Shown one piece after another: positions 1,391-10,386 of a stretch of 64,000 nt of DNA. The notes beneath the pieces were generated by a model. The model had not been told where the DNA came from, ran no database searches, and worked only from the letters and a program-made list of their open reading frames with translations. A program made the position numbers and the translations under genes. This DNA comes from an uncultured Acidimicrobiia bacterium. Lineage in GTDB: Bacteria > Actinomycetota > Acidimicrobiia > Spongiisociales > Spongiisociaceae. Numbering within the stretch: position 1 is the stretch's first letter; each line of letters starts with the position of its first letter. The DNA lies in assembly GCA_958295745.1 (NCBI GenBank), contig OY282370.1, forward strand, positions 2,020,548 through 2,084,547. Reading direction: 5' to 3'.

Positions 1391-1608
1391 TTTCCTTCTT
1401 CGCTTGTAGGGGTCTTGCGCGCCGCAACGGACGGCAGGGTTGCCGACCACTCCTCAAAACCATAGTAGGGCAAAGGCGGTTTTGCCCCACCGAACGCGAT
1501 TTTTTGTTCTACAATGCGGAACCGTCCCGTATCGTGGTACAAAATGGGCAACGGCGGGCCGGTGCATGAGGTATCGGTTGGCTCTGGATGCAAGTCTTGG
1601 AGTTTTCT
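1391..1608. promoter_or_regulatory. Divergent intergenic region between the osmolyte transporter and fhs
   Basis: This 218-base spacer must hold promoters for both directions. On the plus strand TACAAT at 1510-1515 resembles a -10 box and a second, similar TACAAA lies at 1538-1543. No clear -35 accompanies either. On the minus strand the reverse of 1463-1468 reads TACTAT. A 7-bp inverted repeat (GGGCAAA 1468-1474 with TTTGCCC 1481-1487) lies between the two candidate promoters and could be an operator. All of this is inferred from short motifs. Confidence 0.35.
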
Positions 1609-3381
1609 ATGAATGCAACAACTGGTTTCCCCTCGGACCTCGAAATCGCCCAGGCGGCCGCGCCGCGGCCCATCACCGAGATCGCCGAGTCGATAGGCAT
1701 CCGCCCCGAGGAGCTGATCCTCTACGGTGATACCAAGGCCAAGGTACACCTCGACATCCTCAAGCGGATCGGCGGCCGCCCCGCCGGCAAATACGTCGAC
1801 GTGACCGCCGTTACCCCCACCCCGCTCGGGGAAGGCAAGACCACCACCACCGTCGGGCTGGTGCAGGGTCTCGGCGCCCTCGGCCACAAGGCCATCGCCG
1901 CCATCCGCCAGCCGTCGCTGGGACCCACCTTCGGCATCAAGGGAGGGGCGGCGGGGGGCGGCTACAGCCAGGTGATTCCGATGGACGAGTTCAACTTGCA
2001 CCTGACGGGGGACATGCACGCCGTCGGCGCGGCCCACAACCTGGCGGCGGCGGCCATCGACGCCCGTTGGTATCACGAGCGGAGGATGAGCGACGCCCAG
2101 CTCGAGGCGGTGGGTATCGAGCGCCTGAACATCGATGTGTTCCGGACCCAGTGGCGGCGGGTGGTGGACGTCAACGACCGGGCGCTGCGCAACGTCATCG
2201 TGGGCCTGGGCGGGCGGCTCGACGGTCGGCCATGGGAGACCGGATACGACATCACCGTGGCTTCCGAGTTGATGGCGATCCTCGCCCTGGTCGACGGCCA
2301 CGACTATGCATCGGCGTTGCGCAACCTGCGCAACCGCTGCGGCCGGGTGGTGTTCGGCAGCGACAAGAGCGGCCGGCCGATCACGCTCGAAGAAATCGGG
2401 GTGGCCGGCGCCGTGACGGTGCTCATGCGGGACACCCTCCATCCGACCATCATGCAGACCCTGGAGGGCCAGGCCGCCTTCGTCCATGCCGGACCCTTCG
2501 CCAACATCGCCCACGGCAACTCCTCGATCCTCGCCGACCGAGTGGCCCTGCATCTCGGCGACTACGTGATAACCGAATCCGGGTTCGGCGCCGATATGGG
2601 CATGGAGAAGTTCTTGAACATAAAGTGCCGCGCCTCCGGGATGGTCCCCGATGCGGTGGTCCTGGTGGCGACCGTCCGGGCGCTCAAGACCCATGGCGGA
2701 GGCCCCAAGGTGGTGCCCGGGCGGCCCCTCCACGACGCCTACACCAACGAGAACCTGCCGCTCCTCCAGGCCGGTCTCACGAACATGGCGGCCCACATCG
2801 AGAACGCCCACCGCTTCGGGGTGCGGGTGGTCGTGGCCGTCAACTCGTTTCCCACCGATACCTACAACGAGATCGAGGCCGTCAAGCGGGCGGCGCTGGA
2901 GGCGGGGGCGGCCGCCGCGGTGACCGCCAACCACTGGGCGGAGGGCGGCCAAGGGGCTGTCGAGCTCGCCGAAGCGGTCGTGGAAGCCTGCAAGGAGCCG
3001 AGCAGCGGCTTCCGCTTCCTGTATCCGATGGAGCTCTCAATCGAGCAGAAGATCGAGACCATCGCCCGTGAGATCTACGGCGCCGGGGGTGTCGAGTATT
3101 CGAAGACCGCCCAACTTCAGATAGCGGGCTTCGAGCAGGCCGGGCTCGGATACCTCCCGATCTGCATGGCCAAGACCCCTCTCTCGATCTCCCACGATCC
3201 GACCCTCAAGGGACGTCCTACGGGCTTCACCGTACCGGTGCGGGAAGTAAGGGCCTCGGTGGGCGCCGGGTTCCTCGTTCCGATGCTGGGCGAGATCCGC
3301 ACCATGCCCGGCCTCGGTACCAGACCGGCCTATATGAACGTGGACATCGATGAGGACGGGCGGATCGTCGGCCTCTTCTAA
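1609..3381 (+). CDS. fhs: Formate-tetrahydrofolate ligase
   Basis: This enzyme condenses formate with tetrahydrofolate using ATP, giving 10-formyl-THF in the cytoplasm. The P-loop-like motif TPTPLGEGKTTTTVGL sits near residue 70, and the following blocks (RQPSLGPTFGIKGGAAGGGY, GDMHAVGAAHNLAAA) are characteristic of the family. At 590 aa it is a little longer than the usual 555-560. The chosen start has GGAG six bases upstream; ATG 1588 is in frame but lacks this. The gene ends 24 bases before the formate dehydrogenase genes and is very likely co-transcribed with them, so formate can be either oxidised or fed into the folate pool. Confidence 0.95.
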   Translation: MNATTGFPSDLEIAQAAAPRPITEIAESIGIRPEELILYGDTKAKVHLDILKRIGGRPAGKYVDVTAVTPTPLGEGKTTTTVGLVQGLGALGHKAIAAIRQPSLGPTFGIKGGAAGGGYSQVIPMDEFNLHLTGDMHAVGAAHNLAAAAIDARWYHERRMSDAQLEAVGIERLNIDVFRTQWRRVVDVNDRALRNVIVGLGGRLDGRPWETGYDITVASELMAILALVDGHDYASALRNLRNRCGRVVFGSDKSGRPITLEEIGVAGAVTVLMRDTLHPTIMQTLEGQAAFVHAGPFANIAHGNSSILADRVALHLGDYVITESGFGADMGMEKFLNIKCRASGMVPDAVVLVATVRALKTHGGGPKVVPGRPLHDAYTNENLPLLQAGLTNMAAHIENAHRFGVRVVVAVNSFPTDTYNEIEAVKRAALEAGAAAAVTANHWAEGGQGAVELAEAVVEACKEPSSGFRFLYPMELSIEQKIETIAREIYGAGGVEYSKTAQLQIAGFEQAGLGYLPICMAKTPLSISHDPTLKGRPTGFTVPVREVRASVGAGFLVPMLGEIRTMPGLGTRPAYMNVDIDEDGRIVGLF

Positions 3382-3405: not shown

Positions 3406-5298
3406 ATGCCGAAAACGGCGCTCCCCCGTTTGACCACCCCGTACATCCGGCGGGGAGGCGGGCTGGTGGAGGCTTCTTGGGACGAGGCGCTGGCGGCGGC
3501 CGCAGAAGGGCTGGGCGCCCATCGGGGCGGCTCGTACGCGATGCTCTCGTGTTCCAAGGCTTCCAATGAGGTGAACTACCTCGCCCAGAAGTTCGCCCGG
3601 TTGGTCATGGGGTCCAACAACGTCGATTCGTGCAACCGGACCTGACACGCTCCTTCGGTCGCCGGTCTGGCGTCCATGCTGGGAGCGGGAGGCGGGACCT
3701 GCTCTTACGAAGAGATCGAGACCACCGATGTGATCCTCCTGTGGGGATCCAACGCCCGCGAGGCGCACCCGATCTTCTTCCACCACCTCATGAAGGGGTT
3801 GCGCAACGGCGCCGTCATGTACGCGGTGGACCCGCGGCGCACCACCTCGGCCATGTGGGCGGATGCGTGGCTGGGGATAGACGTGGGTTCCGACATCGCC
3901 TTGGCCAACACGGTCGGGCGGGAGATCATCGCCGCCGGGCTCCATCACCGGGAGTTCATCGAAAGGGCCACCTTCGGGTTCGAGATCTACGCCGAGGCGG
4001 TCGAACCTTGGACCCTGGAGCGGGGGGCGGAGGTCACCGGCGTCCCCGCCGAGGTCATCCGCCGGATGGCTCACGACTATGCCTCGGCGGAGCGGGCCCA
4101 GATCTGCTGGACGTTGGGCATAACCGAACACCACAACGCCACCGACAACGTGCGGGCCCTCATCGACTTGGCCCTGCTCACCGGCCACGTGGGCCGTTAC
4201 GGCTCGGGCCTGGTGCCGATCCGCGGCCAGAACAACGTTCAGGGCGGCGGGGACATGGGGGCGCTGCCCGACAAGCTGCCCGGTTTCCAGGATGTTACGG
4301 AACCGGCGGTCAGGGCGAAGTTCGAGTCGGTGTGGGGCGGTTCCGTGCCCGTCCACCGCGGCAAGCACATCTCGCTGATGATCGAGGCTATGGAGCGCAA
4401 GGAGATCACGGGTCTATACGTGATCGGCGAGAACCCCGCCCAGTCCGAGGCCCGCGCCGAGCACGTGAGGGGGCTGCTGGCCGGTTTGGACTTCATGGTA
4501 TGCCAGGACATCTTCATGACCAAGACCGCGCAGCTGGCCGATGTGGTGTTCCCGGCCGCCGCGGGATGGGCCGAATCCGATGGCACCGTCACCAACTCCG
4601 AGCGGCGGGTGCAGCTGATGCGCCGGGCGGTCGAGCCGCCGGGTGAGAGCAAGGACGACTTGGAGATCATCTCCCTGCTCGCCGAGCGTATGGGATGCGG
4701 ATGGGGGTTTCCCTCCGCCGAGGAAGTGTGGGACGAGGTGCGGCGCCTGTCGTCGATACACGCCGGGATGTCCTACCGCCGGCTCGAAGAGCTGGGCGGC
4801 CTGCAGTGGCCCTGCCCCGACGAGGATCATCCCGGTACGCGGTTCCTCCACGCCCGGCTGTGGGAGGAACCGATGACCTGCACCCCGGCGCCCTTCGTGC
4901 CGACCGACTGGGTTCCGCCGATCGACCCGCTCAGCGGCGACTACCCGATCCGGCTCACAACCGGCCGGCGGCTCGACTCCTACAACACCGGGGTGCAGTC
5001 GAGGGGTTACCGCTCGCCGCTCCGGGCGAAGGCGGCCATCGAGGTGGCGCCGCAGGACGGCGCCGCGCTGGGAGTGTCGGAGGGCGACCTGGTAAGCGTC
5101 ACCTCGCGGCGCGGTTCGATCGACGTTCCGATCTTCTTCCACCGGTCCCTCCGCCCCGGCTTGGCCTTCATGGCGGTCCACGCCCCCGACGAAGCAGACG
5201 TGAACCTGCTGACCAACGACGCATGGGATCCCAAGTCGGGCACCGCGGAGTTCAAGGCGACCGCCGTCCGCATCGAGCCCGCAGCCGCGATGTCGTAA
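3406..5298 (+). CDS. Formate dehydrogenase, selenocysteine-containing molybdopterin catalytic polypeptide (C-terminal part of alpha subunit)
   Basis: The frame reads MPKTALPRLTTPYIRR, then DSCNRT-TGA-HAPSVAGL, and continues open to TAA at 5296-5298. The TGA (3643-3645, residue 80) falls exactly where FdhF-type enzymes carry the Mo-ligating selenocysteine followed by the catalytic His, so it should be read as Sec; a SECIS-like hairpin follows. Downstream blocks (LLWGSNAREAHP, RGQNNVQGGGDMGALP, GENPAQSEA, TKTAQLADVVFPAA and a C-terminal dinucleotide-binding domain starting RLTTGRRLDSYNTG) are those of the bis-MGD catalytic subunit. The N-terminal Fe-S domains are missing and are encoded separately at 7101. 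The start is firm: AAGGAGGTGAT, a near-perfect anti-16S match, lies at 3393-3403. Expression requires SelA/B/C/D, which are not in this window. Confidence 0.92.
3643..3687 (+). promoter_or_regulatory. Selenocysteine UGA codon with bacterial SECIS-like hairpin
   Basis: Right after the UGA the RNA can fold into a lower stem GCUCC (3649-3653) with GGAGC (3682-3686) and an upper stem CGCC (3660-3663) with GGCG (3669-3672), closed by the loop GGUCU (3664-3668). The apical loop starts 18 nt after the UGA, inside the spacing range of bacterial SECIS elements, and GGUCU matches, as I recall it, the apical sequence of the E. coli fdhF element bound by SelB. The stems are seen in the sequence; binding by SelB is inferred from the family. 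Confidence 0.85.
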
Positions 5299-5311: not shown

Positions 5312-7108
5312 ATCGACCTGCAATTTTTGTCTGCCGCACCCACTGCAGCCGAGCGGGCGGCGGTGGATGCACTGCTCGGGCCTCCTAAATCCGTATGGGA
5401 GGGCGGCCCCCTGCAGGCATCGGACCACCGCGTCTCCTTCGGGGGCTACCGCCGGTCGGTCGAGAATCGCCGCCTGCTGCTCCCGGCCCTGCACGCCGTC
5501 CAGGACCGGATAGGTTGGATCAGCCAGGGGGCCCTCGGCTACATATGCCGGCGCCTGACGGTTCCTCCGGCGGAGGCTTACGGGGTGGCCGGTTTCTATG
5601 CGCTCTTGTCGATGGAGGAGGGACCGCCCCGCCGGGCCCACGTATGCGACGACGTGGCCTGCCGGAACGCCGGGGGGCTGGACATCCTGGCCGGGCTGGA
5701 TGGCCGCCCCGACGTACACCCGAGCCCCTGCCTCGGCCAATGCGACCGGGGTCCGGCGGTGTTCCTGCAGCGGGCCGGAGAGGAGGACGCCGTCCTGGTG
5801 TCAACGACGGCCCGCCGGGTGGCGGAGGTCTTGGACGGCGGGGCGGTGTCGGCGCCTTCCGTCGCCGTTCCCCAGGCGGGGGATCCGTCCCTGCGGCTGC
5901 TCCGGCGGGTGGGGGTGGTCGATCCTGCCTCCTTGGACGACTACCGGGCGTCGGGGGGGTGCGCGGCGCTGGCACGGGCCGTCGAGATGGGCCCGGACGC
6001 GGTGCTGGCCGAGGTGAAGGCGTCCAACCTGCGGGGCCGGGGAGGGGCGGCCTTTCCGATGGGCGTCAAGTGGGAGGGGGTGGCCCGTTCCCCCGTGAAG
6101 CCCCGGTACCTGATCTGCAACGCCGACGAGTCCGAGCCGGGCACCTTCAAGGACCGGGTTCTCATGGAAGGCGACCCCTTCGCCTTGATCGAGTCGATGA
6201 TCATCGCCGGCCTGGCGGTCGGCGCCGAGCGCGGTTACCTATACATCCGGGCCGAGTATCCCTTGTCGGCGGCCCGACTCGAGGAGGCGCTCGCCCGGAT
6301 GCGGGAGGCCGGGATGTTGGGTGAGGATGCGGCGGGTTCCGGCCAGATGTTCGATATCGAGATCCGGCGGGGGGGCGGCGCCTACATCTGCGGGGAGGAA
6401 ACCGCCCTGATGAACTCGATCGAAGGGAAGCGGGGAGAACCCCGCAACAAGCCCCCTTTCCCCACCCAGGCCGGCCTGTTCGGAATGCCTACCGTGATCA
6501 ACAACGTGGAGACCCTGGTCAACGTGATCGACATCGTGCTGGAAGGGGGCGCCGCCTACGCCGCGACCGGGACGGAACATTCGACAGGGACCAAGCTCTT
6601 CTGCCTGGCCGGGGCGGTGGCCAGGCCCGGGGTGTACGAGGTGGAGTTCGGCGAGACGTTGGGCGGGCTCATAGGGCTGGCGGGCGGGGTGACCGGAACC
6701 GGCCGGCTGGGGGCGGTGCTGCTGGGCGGGGCGGCCGGGATGTTCGTGGGGGAGGAACATCTCGACATGCCCCTGACCTTCGAGGACGCCCGGGACCGCA
6801 GCGCCGCTCTGGGTTCAGGAGTGGTTCTGGTATACGACGACGACGCCGATTTCCGCGACGCGGCCCGCCGGATAGCGCAGTTCTTCCGAGACGAGTCCTG
6901 CGGCCAGTGCGTACCCTGCAGGGTAGGCACCGTGCGCCAGGAGGAGCTGCTGGCCAGACACCTCGGCGGCGCCCGGCTGGAGGAGGATCTGTTCGACGAT
7001 ATCGCCAAGGTGATGATGGACGCCTCGATCTGCGGCCTGGGGCACACCGCCTCTACCGCCATTCGCTCGGCCATCGATCTGGGCCTGCTGGAGAGGGAAG
7101 ATGGCTGA
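5312..7108 (+). CDS. NAD-dependent formate dehydrogenase diaphorase subunit, NuoE-NuoF fusion (HoxF/FdsGB-like)
   Basis: The protein passes electrons from the catalytic subunit to NAD+. The N-terminal part is a NuoE-like thioredoxin-fold [2Fe-2S] domain with Cys107 and Cys112 (CDDVAC) and Cys135 and Cys139 (CLGQC), numbered from TTG 5327. The rest is NuoF-like: NLRGRGGAAFP and YLICNADESEPGTFKDR bind FMN and NADH, and ESCGQCVPCR (Cys525, 528, 531) begins the [4Fe-4S] site. In FdsGBA-type enzymes these are two proteins; here they are fused, as in HoxF. The start is uncertain: GGAGGG at 5300-5305 is ideally placed for an ATC codon at 5312, whereas the first conventional in-frame start, TTG 5327, is 21 bases from it. 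The 3' end overlaps the next gene by 8 bases. Confidence 0.9.
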   Translation: MDLQFLSAAPTAAERAAVDALLGPPKSVWEGGPLQASDHRVSFGGYRRSVENRRLLLPALHAVQDRIGWISQGALGYICRRLTVPPAEAYGVAGFYALLSMEEGPPRRAHVCDDVACRNAGGLDILAGLDGRPDVHPSPCLGQCDRGPAVFLQRAGEEDAVLVSTTARRVAEVLDGGAVSAPSVAVPQAGDPSLRLLRRVGVVDPASLDDYRASGGCAALARAVEMGPDAVLAEVKASNLRGRGGAAFPMGVKWEGVARSPVKPRYLICNADESEPGTFKDRVLMEGDPFALIESMIIAGLAVGAERGYLYIRAEYPLSAARLEEALARMREAGMLGEDAAGSGQMFDIEIRRGGGAYICGEETALMNSIEGKRGEPRNKPPFPTQAGLFGMPTVINNVETLVNVIDIVLEGGAAYAATGTEHSTGTKLFCLAGAVARPGVYEVEFGETLGGLIGLAGGVTGTGRLGAVLLGGAAGMFVGEEHLDMPLTFEDARDRSAALGSGVVLVYDDDADFRDAARRIAQFFRDESCGQCVPCRVGTVRQEELLARHLGGARLEEDLFDDIAKVMMDASICGLGHTASTAIRSAIDLGLLEREDG

Positions 7109-8069
7109 CGGGGCCGACCCGCCCGGGGTGACGCTGACCGTGGACGGCGCGGCGGTGGCGGTGCCGGCAGGGTCCACCATCCTGGATGCCTGCCGGGCGG
7201 CGGGCAAGGATCAGCCCACCCTTTGCTATCTGGACAACCTCACCCCGGTCAACGCCTGCCGGGTGTGTGTGGTGGAGGTGGACGGGAACCGGACCTTGGC
7301 GCCGTCGTGCAGCCGGCCGGTCGAGGAGGGGATGGCGGTGGGCACCGACACCGACCGGGTGCGCCATTCACGCAAGATGGTGTACGAGTTCCTGGCCTCC
7401 TCGGCGGACATGGGTCTGGTCGACGAGCAGACCGTCCGCTGGATGTCCTATTACGGCTGCGATCCGGCCCGCTACGGCCCTCAGGCCGGTCCGGTCGAGG
7501 ATCGGGACGAGCGGACCGCCGGCCATCACCGCATCGGAGACGGCCATGCGGCCGAGACCGTCCACCAGTCGGTCAAGGTGGACAACGAGCTGTATGTGCG
7601 CGACTACTCCCGCTGCATCCTCTGTTACAAGTGTGTGGAGGCCTGCGGGGAGGACGCCCAGAACACCTTCGCCATCGCCGTGGCCGGACGCGGGTTCGAC
7701 GCCCGCATCTCCACCGAGTTCGATGTGGGGCTGACCGACTCGGCCTGCGTTTTCTGCGGCAACTGCATAAGCGTGTGCCCTACCGGCGCCCTGATGTTCC
7801 GGAGCGAGCACGAGCTGCGGGCCGCCGATATGTGGGAGGAGGACCGCCAGACCGTCACCCGCACCGTTTGTTCGTATTGCGGCGTGGGATGCAACCTCGA
7901 CCTGCATGTTCAGGACAACCGGATCGTCAAGGTCACCTCGCCGATCGATCACTCGGTGACCTCGGGCCACCTGTGCATCAAGGGCCGGTTCGGTTACGAA
8001 TACGTGCAGGAGCTGGGCGACCTCGCCGTCACTCCTATCGACGAGGTGCTCCGCCGGGCGCGGGGCTGA
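7101..8069 (+). CDS. Formate dehydrogenase alpha subunit, N-terminal Fe-S part (separate polypeptide)
   Basis: This 322-aa protein holds the iron-sulfur wiring normally at the N-terminus of FdsA/FdhA. A plant-type [2Fe-2S] domain has Cys42, 53, 56 and 70. Two [4Fe-4S] ferredoxin motifs use Cys172/175/178/182 and 216/219/222/226. A molybdopterin-oxidoreductase [4Fe-4S] domain (CSYCGVGC, with GHLCIKGRFGYEYV) has Cys257/260/264/292. It ends about 20 residues later, exactly where the protein encoded at 3406 picks up the alpha-subunit sequence. The His/Cys-ligated NuoG-type cluster motif (HxxxCxxC-x5-C) expected near residues 85-120 is absent. The ATG overlaps the preceding stop by 8 bases, indicating coupled translation. 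Confidence 0.9.
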   Translation: MADGADPPGVTLTVDGAAVAVPAGSTILDACRAAGKDQPTLCYLDNLTPVNACRVCVVEVDGNRTLAPSCSRPVEEGMAVGTDTDRVRHSRKMVYEFLASSADMGLVDEQTVRWMSYYGCDPARYGPQAGPVEDRDERTAGHHRIGDGHAAETVHQSVKVDNELYVRDYSRCILCYKCVEACGEDAQNTFAIAVAGRGFDARISTEFDVGLTDSACVFCGNCISVCPTGALMFRSEHELRAADMWEEDRQTVTRTVCSYCGVGCNLDLHVQDNRIVKVTSPIDHSVTSGHLCIKGRFGYEYVQELGDLAVTPIDEVLRRARG

Positions 8070-8082
8070 CCGGGGCCCGGCG

Positions 8083-9387
8083 GTGGCAAAGGACGGGGGG
8101 CGGTTCGTCGGGTCGCCTGCGGCCGCGGTGTTGTTGGGGGCGGTGATTCTGATCACCCACGGGTTCGGCTCCGGTCTCATACCGGCCCTGCTGCCCCAGA
8201 TCGTAGATTCCTTCCAGTCTGGGTATGGGGTGCTCAGCCTGGCATTGACCGCCGGCATGGCGGCCTACGGGTTGGGGGCGGCCTTGGCGGTCAAGGTCGT
8301 AGATATCGTTCCCCCGCGCGGGTTGCTGATGCTCTGTCTGGCGGTCTGCGCGGCGGCTTTCCTGTCCGCGTCGGCGGCGTCGTCGCCGGGAATGCTGGCC
8401 GCCTGCACGGCGGCGATCGGCCTCTCCGCACCCATCAGCTGGTCGGCGGCCGTCCATATAGCGGGCGAGGCGGTGGACCCGCGGCACCACGGCCGGGTCC
8501 TGGCAGTCGCCAGCGCCGGCACCGGCGTCGGATACGGGCTGAACGGGGTTTTCGTTCAGATATTGGCCGGGCCGGAGGAGTGGAGGACGGCGTTCGCCGC
8601 CGCCTCGGTTGTGTCGGTCTGCACGATCGCGGGGGTGCTGCTGGTGTTCCGGCGGCCGATCGAGATGCCGTTCCAGACGGCGAAGGTGGGGCGCGGCCGG
8701 GGTGTCTGGCGGCGGATCTGGATGGTGCCGGGCGGGCGGGCCGTGATCCTGATGAGCGTGGTGTCGGGCGCCGGTGGGCTGACCTTCGCGACCTACCTCT
8801 CCGAGGTCGCCGTAGACGAGCTGGCTGCGAGCCCGGCGGCGGCCGCCGCTCCGTGGTGGCTGGCCGCCGCGGTCGGGGTGGCGGCCGCCCTGCCTTTGGG
8901 CCTGATGGGTGATCGCGGCTCGCCCGTGAGAGTGGTGTCGGTCATGGTCGGCGCCTACGCGGCCTTGCTGGGGGTGTTGTCGCTCTGGTGGTCCTACCCC
9001 GCCCTGATGGCGGCGGCGTTCGGGTACGGCGTCCTGAACTTCCCGGTCTGGGGGTTGATCGGGCTGGCCGCCCACCGCAGCCTTCCTCCCCGACTGGCCG
9101 TCCGGGCGGTATCGGGGGGATTGGCGGCGGCGGCCGGGGCGGCCGCTCTGTCCATCACCGCGTCGGGCGCGTGGATAGACCGGACCGGGAGCTTCCGGGT
9201 CCCGGCGGCGGTGCTGGCGGTGCTGGTGGCGGTTGCCGCGCTGTGGTTCGGGGCCGGGCGCCGCGCCCCGCCGCAAGATAGGGAAGCCTTCGCCGAGGCC
9301 GTCGACGCGCTGTGGATCGGGGATGAGCCGCCCGCCGGCGCCGGTTCGCCTACGACGCCTTCCGCCGAGCCGGAAGGTACGCGATGA
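8083..9387 (+). CDS. MFS transporter, last gene of the formate operon
   Basis: This 434-aa protein is strongly hydrophobic with roughly twelve membrane segments in two halves and a basic cytoplasmic loop around residues 200-225 (KVGRGRGVWRR). It is a major facilitator superfamily member. The GTG start lies 13 bases after the FDH Fe-S gene, so it belongs to that operon. By position it may move formate, oxalate or another one-carbon acid, but the sequence alone does not show the substrate. The C-terminal 40 residues are hydrophilic and proline-rich. Confidence 0.8.
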   Translation: MAKDGGRFVGSPAAAVLLGAVILITHGFGSGLIPALLPQIVDSFQSGYGVLSLALTAGMAAYGLGAALAVKVVDIVPPRGLLMLCLAVCAAAFLSASAASSPGMLAACTAAIGLSAPISWSAAVHIAGEAVDPRHHGRVLAVASAGTGVGYGLNGVFVQILAGPEEWRTAFAAASVVSVCTIAGVLLVFRRPIEMPFQTAKVGRGRGVWRRIWMVPGGRAVILMSVVSGAGGLTFATYLSEVAVDELAASPAAAAAPWWLAAAVGVAAALPLGLMGDRGSPVRVVSVMVGAYAALLGVLSLWWSYPALMAAAFGYGVLNFPVWGLIGLAAHRSLPPRLAVRAVSGGLAAAAGAAALSITASGAWIDRTGSFRVPAAVLAVLVAVAALWFGAGRRAPPQDREAFAEAVDALWIGDEPPAGAGSPTTPSAEPEGTR

Positions 9388-9528: not shown

Positions 9529-10386
9529 ATGACGAGCACAACCAGAACCCTGCCGCCGTTGTTTGCCGAAGAGAAAGTCCAGGTCAGCGTGTTTGAAGGA
9601 GACGCGAGCCGGGTACTCAGGGACCTTCCGGCGGAGTCGGTGCATCTGGTGGTCACCTCGCCTCCCTACGCCGATCAGCGGCGGTCCACCTACGGAGGCA
9701 TCCATCCCGATGACTATGTTGAATGGTTCAAGCCGATCGCGGCGGGAATCCACCACGTTCTCCACCCGGAGGGCACCTTTGTTCTCAATATCAAGGAGAA
9801 GGTGGTGAAGGGAGAGCGCCACACCTACGTGCTCGAACTGATTCAGGCAATGCGGGCCGGGGGATGGTTGTGGACAGAGGAGTTCATCTGGCACAAGAAG
9901 AATTGTTATCCCGGCAAGTGGCCGAACCGCTTCCGGGACGCCTGGGAGAGGCTGTTGCAGTTCAACAAGCAGCGCAAGTTCAAGATGCGCCAGGAAGAGG
10001 TGAGAGTTCCGGTGGGAGAATGGGCCAATGGCCGGTTGCGCAACCTGAGCGAGACAGACCGTATTCGGGACGAGTCGAACGTAGGCAGCGGGTTCGGAAA
10101 GAACATATCCAACTGGGTGGGCCGTGACCTGGCTTATCCGACCAACGTGCTTCACATGGCCACCGAGTGCTCGAACAGACGGCATAGCGCGGTCTTCCCC
10201 GAGCCGCTTCCCAGATGGTTCATTCGACTGTTTACTGATGAAGGAGACACCGTACTGGACCCATTCGCGGGGTCAGGCACCACCTTGGCTGCCGCCTCGG
10301 ATCTGAACAGGCGGGCTATAGGAATAGACATCGACCCGGAATACTGTGACCTAGCCCGTGAAAGGCTCGGTATAGGTTTACCCTGA
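9529..10386 (+). CDS. Orphan DNA methyltransferase, beta class (N4-cytosine or N6-adenine)
   Basis: The 285-aa enzyme transfers a methyl group from S-adenosylmethionine to an exocyclic amino group in DNA. The catalytic motif TSPPY (43-47) precedes the SAM-binding motif DPFAGSGTT (244-252), the order of beta-class enzymes. TSPPY is commoner in N4-cytosine enzymes, but the base cannot be settled by eye. A strong RBS (GGAGAGGAGG) precedes the ATG. No restriction gene adjoins it, and the flanking genes are metabolic, so it is probably a solitary methylase. Codon use is less GC-biased than in its neighbours, suggesting acquisition. Confidence 0.88.

Follow-up and report, generated by a model that had tools for sequence, protein, structure and literature searches.

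Does the TGA that interrupts a formate dehydrogenase gene of an uncultured Acidimicrobiia bacterium end the protein or encode selenocysteine (Sec, U), and what kind of enzyme would result? The gene, fdhA, lies on the plus strand at 3406-5298 of a 64,000-nucleotide stretch of contig OY282370.1 (the window) and ends in TAA. With TGA translated as Sec, the frame 3406-5295 is open for 630 amino acids and its sole TGA is codon 80 (3643-3645), in the motif DSCNRT-U-HAPSVAGL. An earlier note on this DNA had placed this TGA at the catalytic Sec position of a formate dehydrogenase and warned that gene callers would begin a truncated protein at 3676; under the standard code, the longest piece in the list of open reading frames is indeed 3676-5298 (540 amino acids).

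The catalytic subunit and the selenocysteine machinery

Alignment of the fdhA product placed U80 on the Sec of E. coli FdhF, in agreement with the note. A strong fdhA match was found in 106 of 149 relatives, nearly all of the close ones having one internal TGA, and all 89 close homologues from these relatives carry TGA at the position of codon 80. In a scan of named loci (one genome per species) the same was true of 80/80 of the best loci, although that scan relied on peptide patterns, of which one had Cys at this place, and covers the best 80 only, so that Cys forms may exist beyond them. Four orthologues have Cys at this position. A coding gap there, which the note had named among the results that would speak against Sec, occurred in none of the orthologues, the codon being always TGA or Cys.

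Pfam analysis of the product revealed the molybdopterin (PF00384) and dinucleotide-binding (PF01568) domains of a molybdopterin (bis-MGD) catalytic subunit, and no N-terminal or other Fe4S4 domain. Against TIGR01591 (formate dehydrogenase alpha) it scored 623.8 bits with a match from profile position 51 onward, which is below the cut-off of 666.25 bits that applies to the full-length protein with three domains in one chain. The formate motif RGQNNVQG..DMG is present, and His81 and Arg273 are invariant among the 21 aligned members of the family; these residues correspond to His141 and Arg333 of E. coli FdhF. The best relatives with solved structures are formate dehydrogenases or HDCR. Judged from these comparisons, fdhA is a genuine, if predicted, Sec formate dehydrogenase.

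The genome (3.31 Mb, 97% complete) was searched for the machinery that Sec insertion would need, a check proposed in the note, and selA, selB, selD and tRNA-Sec (selC) were all found. SelB scored 332 bits, above its cut-off, in the genome profile search; SelA, encoded directly upstream of selB, scored 360 bits; and the tRNA-Sec, with anticodon UCA, scored 78.9 bits against the tRNA-Sec model. ARAGORN found no tRNA in the window, and the tRNA-Sec is located elsewhere in the genome. SelD (378 bits) has an in-frame TGA of its own, at GGG-U-ACK. Downstream of that selD TGA (L015, G000:C1:842510-843433, minus strand), the RNA could form CGCAGGUUCUGCG, with an apical loop unlike that of fdhA. The genome also encodes FdhD, the formate dehydrogenase maturation factor, and a second molybdopterin oxidoreductase (L017, L018; G000:C1:783298-784980) with a frame of 1029 amino acids and a weak formate dehydrogenase alpha match of about 120 bits.

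A hairpin 3' of the TGA

The RNA that begins with the UGA contains a bacterial SECIS element (3643-3690, plus strand). Its lower stem, GCUCC/GGAGC, pairs 3649-3653 with 3682-3686, and its upper stem, GUCGCC/GGCGUC, pairs 3658-3663 with 3669-3674 around the apical loop GGUCU (3664-3668), 22-26 nt from the UGA. A single-sequence fold returned the two-part stem and this loop at -22.1 kcal/mol, with a z score of only -1.6. Rfam SECIS_3 (RF01989) matched 3640-3698 with 31.7 bits (E 4e-5), short of its gathering score of 63, and an Rfam search of the window at the gathering threshold gave no match. The fold alone is no proof of a SECIS element, and it is the comparison of sequences that decides the assignment. 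In E. coli fdhF (NC_000913.3) GGUCU occupies positions +22 to +26 relative to the UGA, in the identical register. The likeness to the fdhF loop that the note had pointed out thus extends to its register, and the two-part stem that it had described was returned by folding, with comparative support for the upper part. The end of its stretch 3406-3687 fits the RNA element, which runs to about 3687-3690, but the enzyme reaches 5298 and the functional unit 8069.

Codon use across the loop is fixed. The Gly87 codon is GGT and the Leu88 codon CTG in 89/89 close homologues, against a general use in these genes of 19% for GGT among Gly codons and 36% for CTG. Only four codons are invariant among 198 conserved protein positions, Gly87 and Leu88 included, and of 32 conserved Gly positions just one besides Gly87 uses GGT more than any other codon, at 35%. 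Across 79 unique sequences, the upper stem with its six pairs remains paired in 470 of 474 cells, a value reached by none of 2000 shuffles (maximum 466), which ignore the relatedness of the sequences. Two-sided compensating changes, from C-G to G-C and from G-C to A-U, were seen in this stem. The lower stem pairs well except for its outermost pair, and its covariation is no better than that of the shuffles. Among homologues of about 40% identity, those with TGA retain the loop and the upper stem and those with Cys do not. By this comparative evidence the hairpin 3' of the UGA is evidently under selection at the RNA level. In two Rokubacteria MAGs (L160 and L198), a split Sec fdhA with UGA has the apical loop GGGCU instead of GGUCU; these were the sole two exceptions among the TGA-bearing split loci seen, and may reflect a SelB of different loop preference.

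Two other readings of the TGA were weighed against Sec. If it were a real stop, or the mark of a pseudogene or a sequencing error, the protein would begin at 3676, as standard ORF calling has it; we consider this very improbable, since the TGA is the same codon in 89/89 relatives, the 80 upstream codons are conserved in frame, the loop codons are fixed and the sel genes and tRNA-Sec are present. The pseudogene reading of fdhA was rejected on the conserved TGA, frame and loop codons. An in-frame TGA within a conserved gene would also be expected if the codon had been reassigned and were read generally as an amino acid. That reading has next to no probability: TGA is the stop codon of three genes of the same operon, namely the nuoEF gene (fdhB), fdhC and an MFS gene, and is therefore not generally recoded; in FdhA and SelD alike it stands where Sec is expected; and the UCA-anticodon tRNA fits the tRNA-Sec model. 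General reassignment was accordingly rejected on the TGA stops within the operon. With UGA 3643 taken as a Sec codon, SelB and Sec-tRNA would read it because the adjoining hairpin presents the loop GGUCU.

A catalytic subunit divided between two chains

Downstream of fdhA on the plus strand, fdhB (5327-7108, 593 amino acids, stop TGA) encodes a diaphorase subunit, a NuoE-NuoF fusion with 2Fe-2S thioredoxin-like, FMN/NAD, SLBB and 4Fe-4S domains. It is followed by fdhC (7101-8069, plus strand, 322 amino acids, stop TGA), for a HoxU/NuoG-N-like 2Fe-2S and 4Fe-4S subunit. The C-terminus of the fdhC product (about residues 251-303, Pfam Molybdop_Fe4S4) is the Fe4S4 domain of a formate dehydrogenase; the start of TIGR01591 (positions 1-51), missing from the fdhA product, aligns here with residues 255-305. 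The whole of this chain (chain C) aligns with residues 25-304 of FdsA from an NAD-dependent formate dehydrogenase of solved structure, and the fdhA product (chain A) with residues 324-932, so that chains C and A would together make up one FdsA. By alignment, FdsA is cut here between its Fe4S4 and molybdopterin domains, and the second piece is placed ahead of the NuoE-NuoF gene, a division that the note had missed. In chain C, Cys257, Cys260, Cys264, Cys292 and Lys294 are invariant among the 21 aligned members; Lys294 occupies the place of E. coli Lys44.

The order catalytic gene, NuoF, HoxU, Fe4S4 on one strand was found at 94 of 108 split-type loci, a set in which some genomes are counted twice and most of the other loci leave the contig or the stretch examined. 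The Fe4S4 domain preceded the catalytic gene at 0/108. Between fdhA and nuoEF some Chloroflexi loci have intervening DNA, which was dismissed because its genes looked unrelated and varied by locus. AlphaFold models of the chains, built from alignments of 21 and 12 rows, had mean pLDDT values of 57 and 66, too low to judge how the chains dock or to serve for a fold search.

Upstream, fhs (1588-3381, plus strand) encodes formate-tetrahydrofolate ligase; it lies 24 bases before fdhA and is probably part of the same operon, and its proximity suggests that the enzyme is used in one-carbon metabolism. Immediately downstream of fdhC is an MFS transporter gene (8083-9387, plus strand, stop TGA), also found downstream in two genomes of the same family and possibly co-transcribed with the fdh genes. 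Shortly past the operon, an N6/N4 adenine-specific DNA methyltransferase (PF01555) is encoded at 9529-10386 of the window.

Taken as a whole, the operon very probably encodes a cytoplasmic, probably NAD-reducing, Mo or W formate dehydrogenase with a Sec ligand, whose FdsA-type subunit comes in two pieces. One of them, chain A (3406-5298), carrying Sec80, His81 and Arg273, would bind the bis-MGD cofactor, and formate would be oxidised at its Mo/W-Sec centre. Chain C (7101-8069) would assemble with it and supply the proximal [4Fe-4S] domain, with a Lys beside the cofactor, plus further clusters. Electrons would then pass from chain A to the [4Fe-4S] cluster of chain C and follow the Fe-S chain of that subunit until they reach the NuoE-NuoF chain, whose FMN would hand them to NAD+. 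A split molybdoenzyme might instead act on another substrate, or serve mainly as a CO2 reductase or an electron-bifurcating enzyme, as the TIGR01591 score under the cut-off (623.8 against 666, with the first 50 positions missing) and the occurrence of NuoF-like subunits in bifurcating complexes would allow. We regard this as unlikely, given that the best matches of known structure are formate dehydrogenases or HDCR, that the formate motif and the Arg and His are conserved, and that fhs adjoins; in addition, the main text of a report on Actinomycetospora chiangmaiensis describes up-regulation of its FDH3 during formate-making growth (PMC7176365).

History and comparison with known enzymes

In a tree of 55 sequences a branch with full support (100/100) brings all split forms together, and the fused forms nearest to them contain Sec and come from another actinobacterial family. 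Fused FdsA-type forms coexist with the split ones as paralogues of about 35-45% identity in the same order of bacteria. Four of these fused paralogues (L113-L116) also have TGA and the GGUCU hairpin and, by that signature, are a second, predicted type of selenoprotein formate dehydrogenase. The Cys split forms make up one supported clade nested within the Sec forms, which suggests a change from Sec to Cys, a reading that requires the root to lie among the fused forms. These four orthologues (L213-L216, one genus, genomes of 6-10 Mb, 59-63% identity) have TGC or TGT at U80. They are the most telling control for the hairpin: their peptide DSCNRTCHAPSVAGL is unchanged and is encoded by GGACTG, GGACTC or GGGCTG, with loss of the GGUCU loop. 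In three of the four genomes the SelB-like matches are no stronger than those to be had from other translation factors, and in the fourth one such match lies just below the cut-off. The named records nearest to the window's genes are labelled Acidimicrobiia, which makes this very probably the class of the host. Named carriers of the split form include Acidimicrobiia, Pseudonocardia, Chloroflexota, Dormibacterota, Rokubacteria, Acidobacteriota and Planctomycetota MAGs, some of whose names are possibly wrong through binning.

The open-access papers searched gave no link between Acidimicrobiia and a Sec formate dehydrogenase and no selenoproteins of Ilumatobacter. Nor, supplements aside, did they yield a split or Fe4S4-relocated formate dehydrogenase or an explicit statement of the domain relocation and its breadth, a weak negative; an Fe4S4 domain acting in trans seems to have been little noticed. 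We put at about even chances the full reconstruction in which gene fission placed the proximal [4Fe-4S] domain and the cofactor-touching Lys on a chain separate from the Sec active site, giving one monophyletic, overwhelmingly Sec-dependent lineage of mostly uncultured bacteria from many phyla, in which one clade went back to Cys and lost the SECIS loop, and whose relocation is undescribed.

At the level of sequence these results secure Sec use for a family of uncultured Acidimicrobiia; they also correct the annotation of a gene that gene callers truncate, and reveal a split Sec formate dehydrogenase that is common among environmental bacteria of several phyla. The enzyme, available in two chains by nature, could be used to ask what purpose the usual covalent attachment of the Fe4S4 domain serves, and in the nested Cys clade nature has supplied a before-and-after test of the SECIS element.

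Among known enzymes, FdsABG and MeFDH1 have the HoxU-like, Fe4S4 and molybdopterin domains in one chain, with Cys. FdsABG (Rhodobacter/Cupriavidus) and MeFDH1 (Methylorubrum; PDB 6tg9, 7vw6) have the same domain set as the window, and the beta subunit of MeFDH1 (7e5z_B) is a NuoE-NuoF fusion like that of fdhB; the window differs in the split between the Fe4S4 and molybdopterin domains, in the changed order and in Sec. E. coli FdhF (formate dehydrogenase H) shares with fdhA the position of Sec and the register of GGUCU, but has its own Fe4S4 domain and is part of formate hydrogenlyase. In HylCBA-FdhF2 of Clostridium acidurici, an electron-bifurcating enzyme, the Sec catalytic subunit is separate from HylA and the NuoE/NuoF-like subunits, as in the window, but it is described as retaining a 4Fe-4S cluster-binding domain (PMC5736913).

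A counterpart of matching subunit sizes is FDH3 (FdhA3-FdhB3-FdhC3) of A. chiangmaiensis DSM 45062, whose host belongs to a different actinobacterial class. The main text of Rohwerder et al. 2020 (PMC7176365) describes a cytoplasmic NAD type with a Sec catalytic subunit of 640 amino acids and further subunits of 614 and 316, which is expressed and whose level rises two- to three-fold on a substrate that yields formate; formate removal by the strain is selenite-dependent and unaffected by tungstate. The likeness is one of gene set and subunit size (640/614/316 against 630/593/322 amino acids in the window), and the location of the Fe4S4 domain is not discussed in the passages of that text consulted. 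Two Pseudonocardia homologues of fdhA have 63% identity, and one has subunit sizes matching FDH3; in Pseudonocardia alaniniphila the first subunit has 641 amino acids and the third 317. Going by the main text of PMC7176365, the three-subunit Sec formate dehydrogenase is a type already reported, in one cultured actinobacterium.
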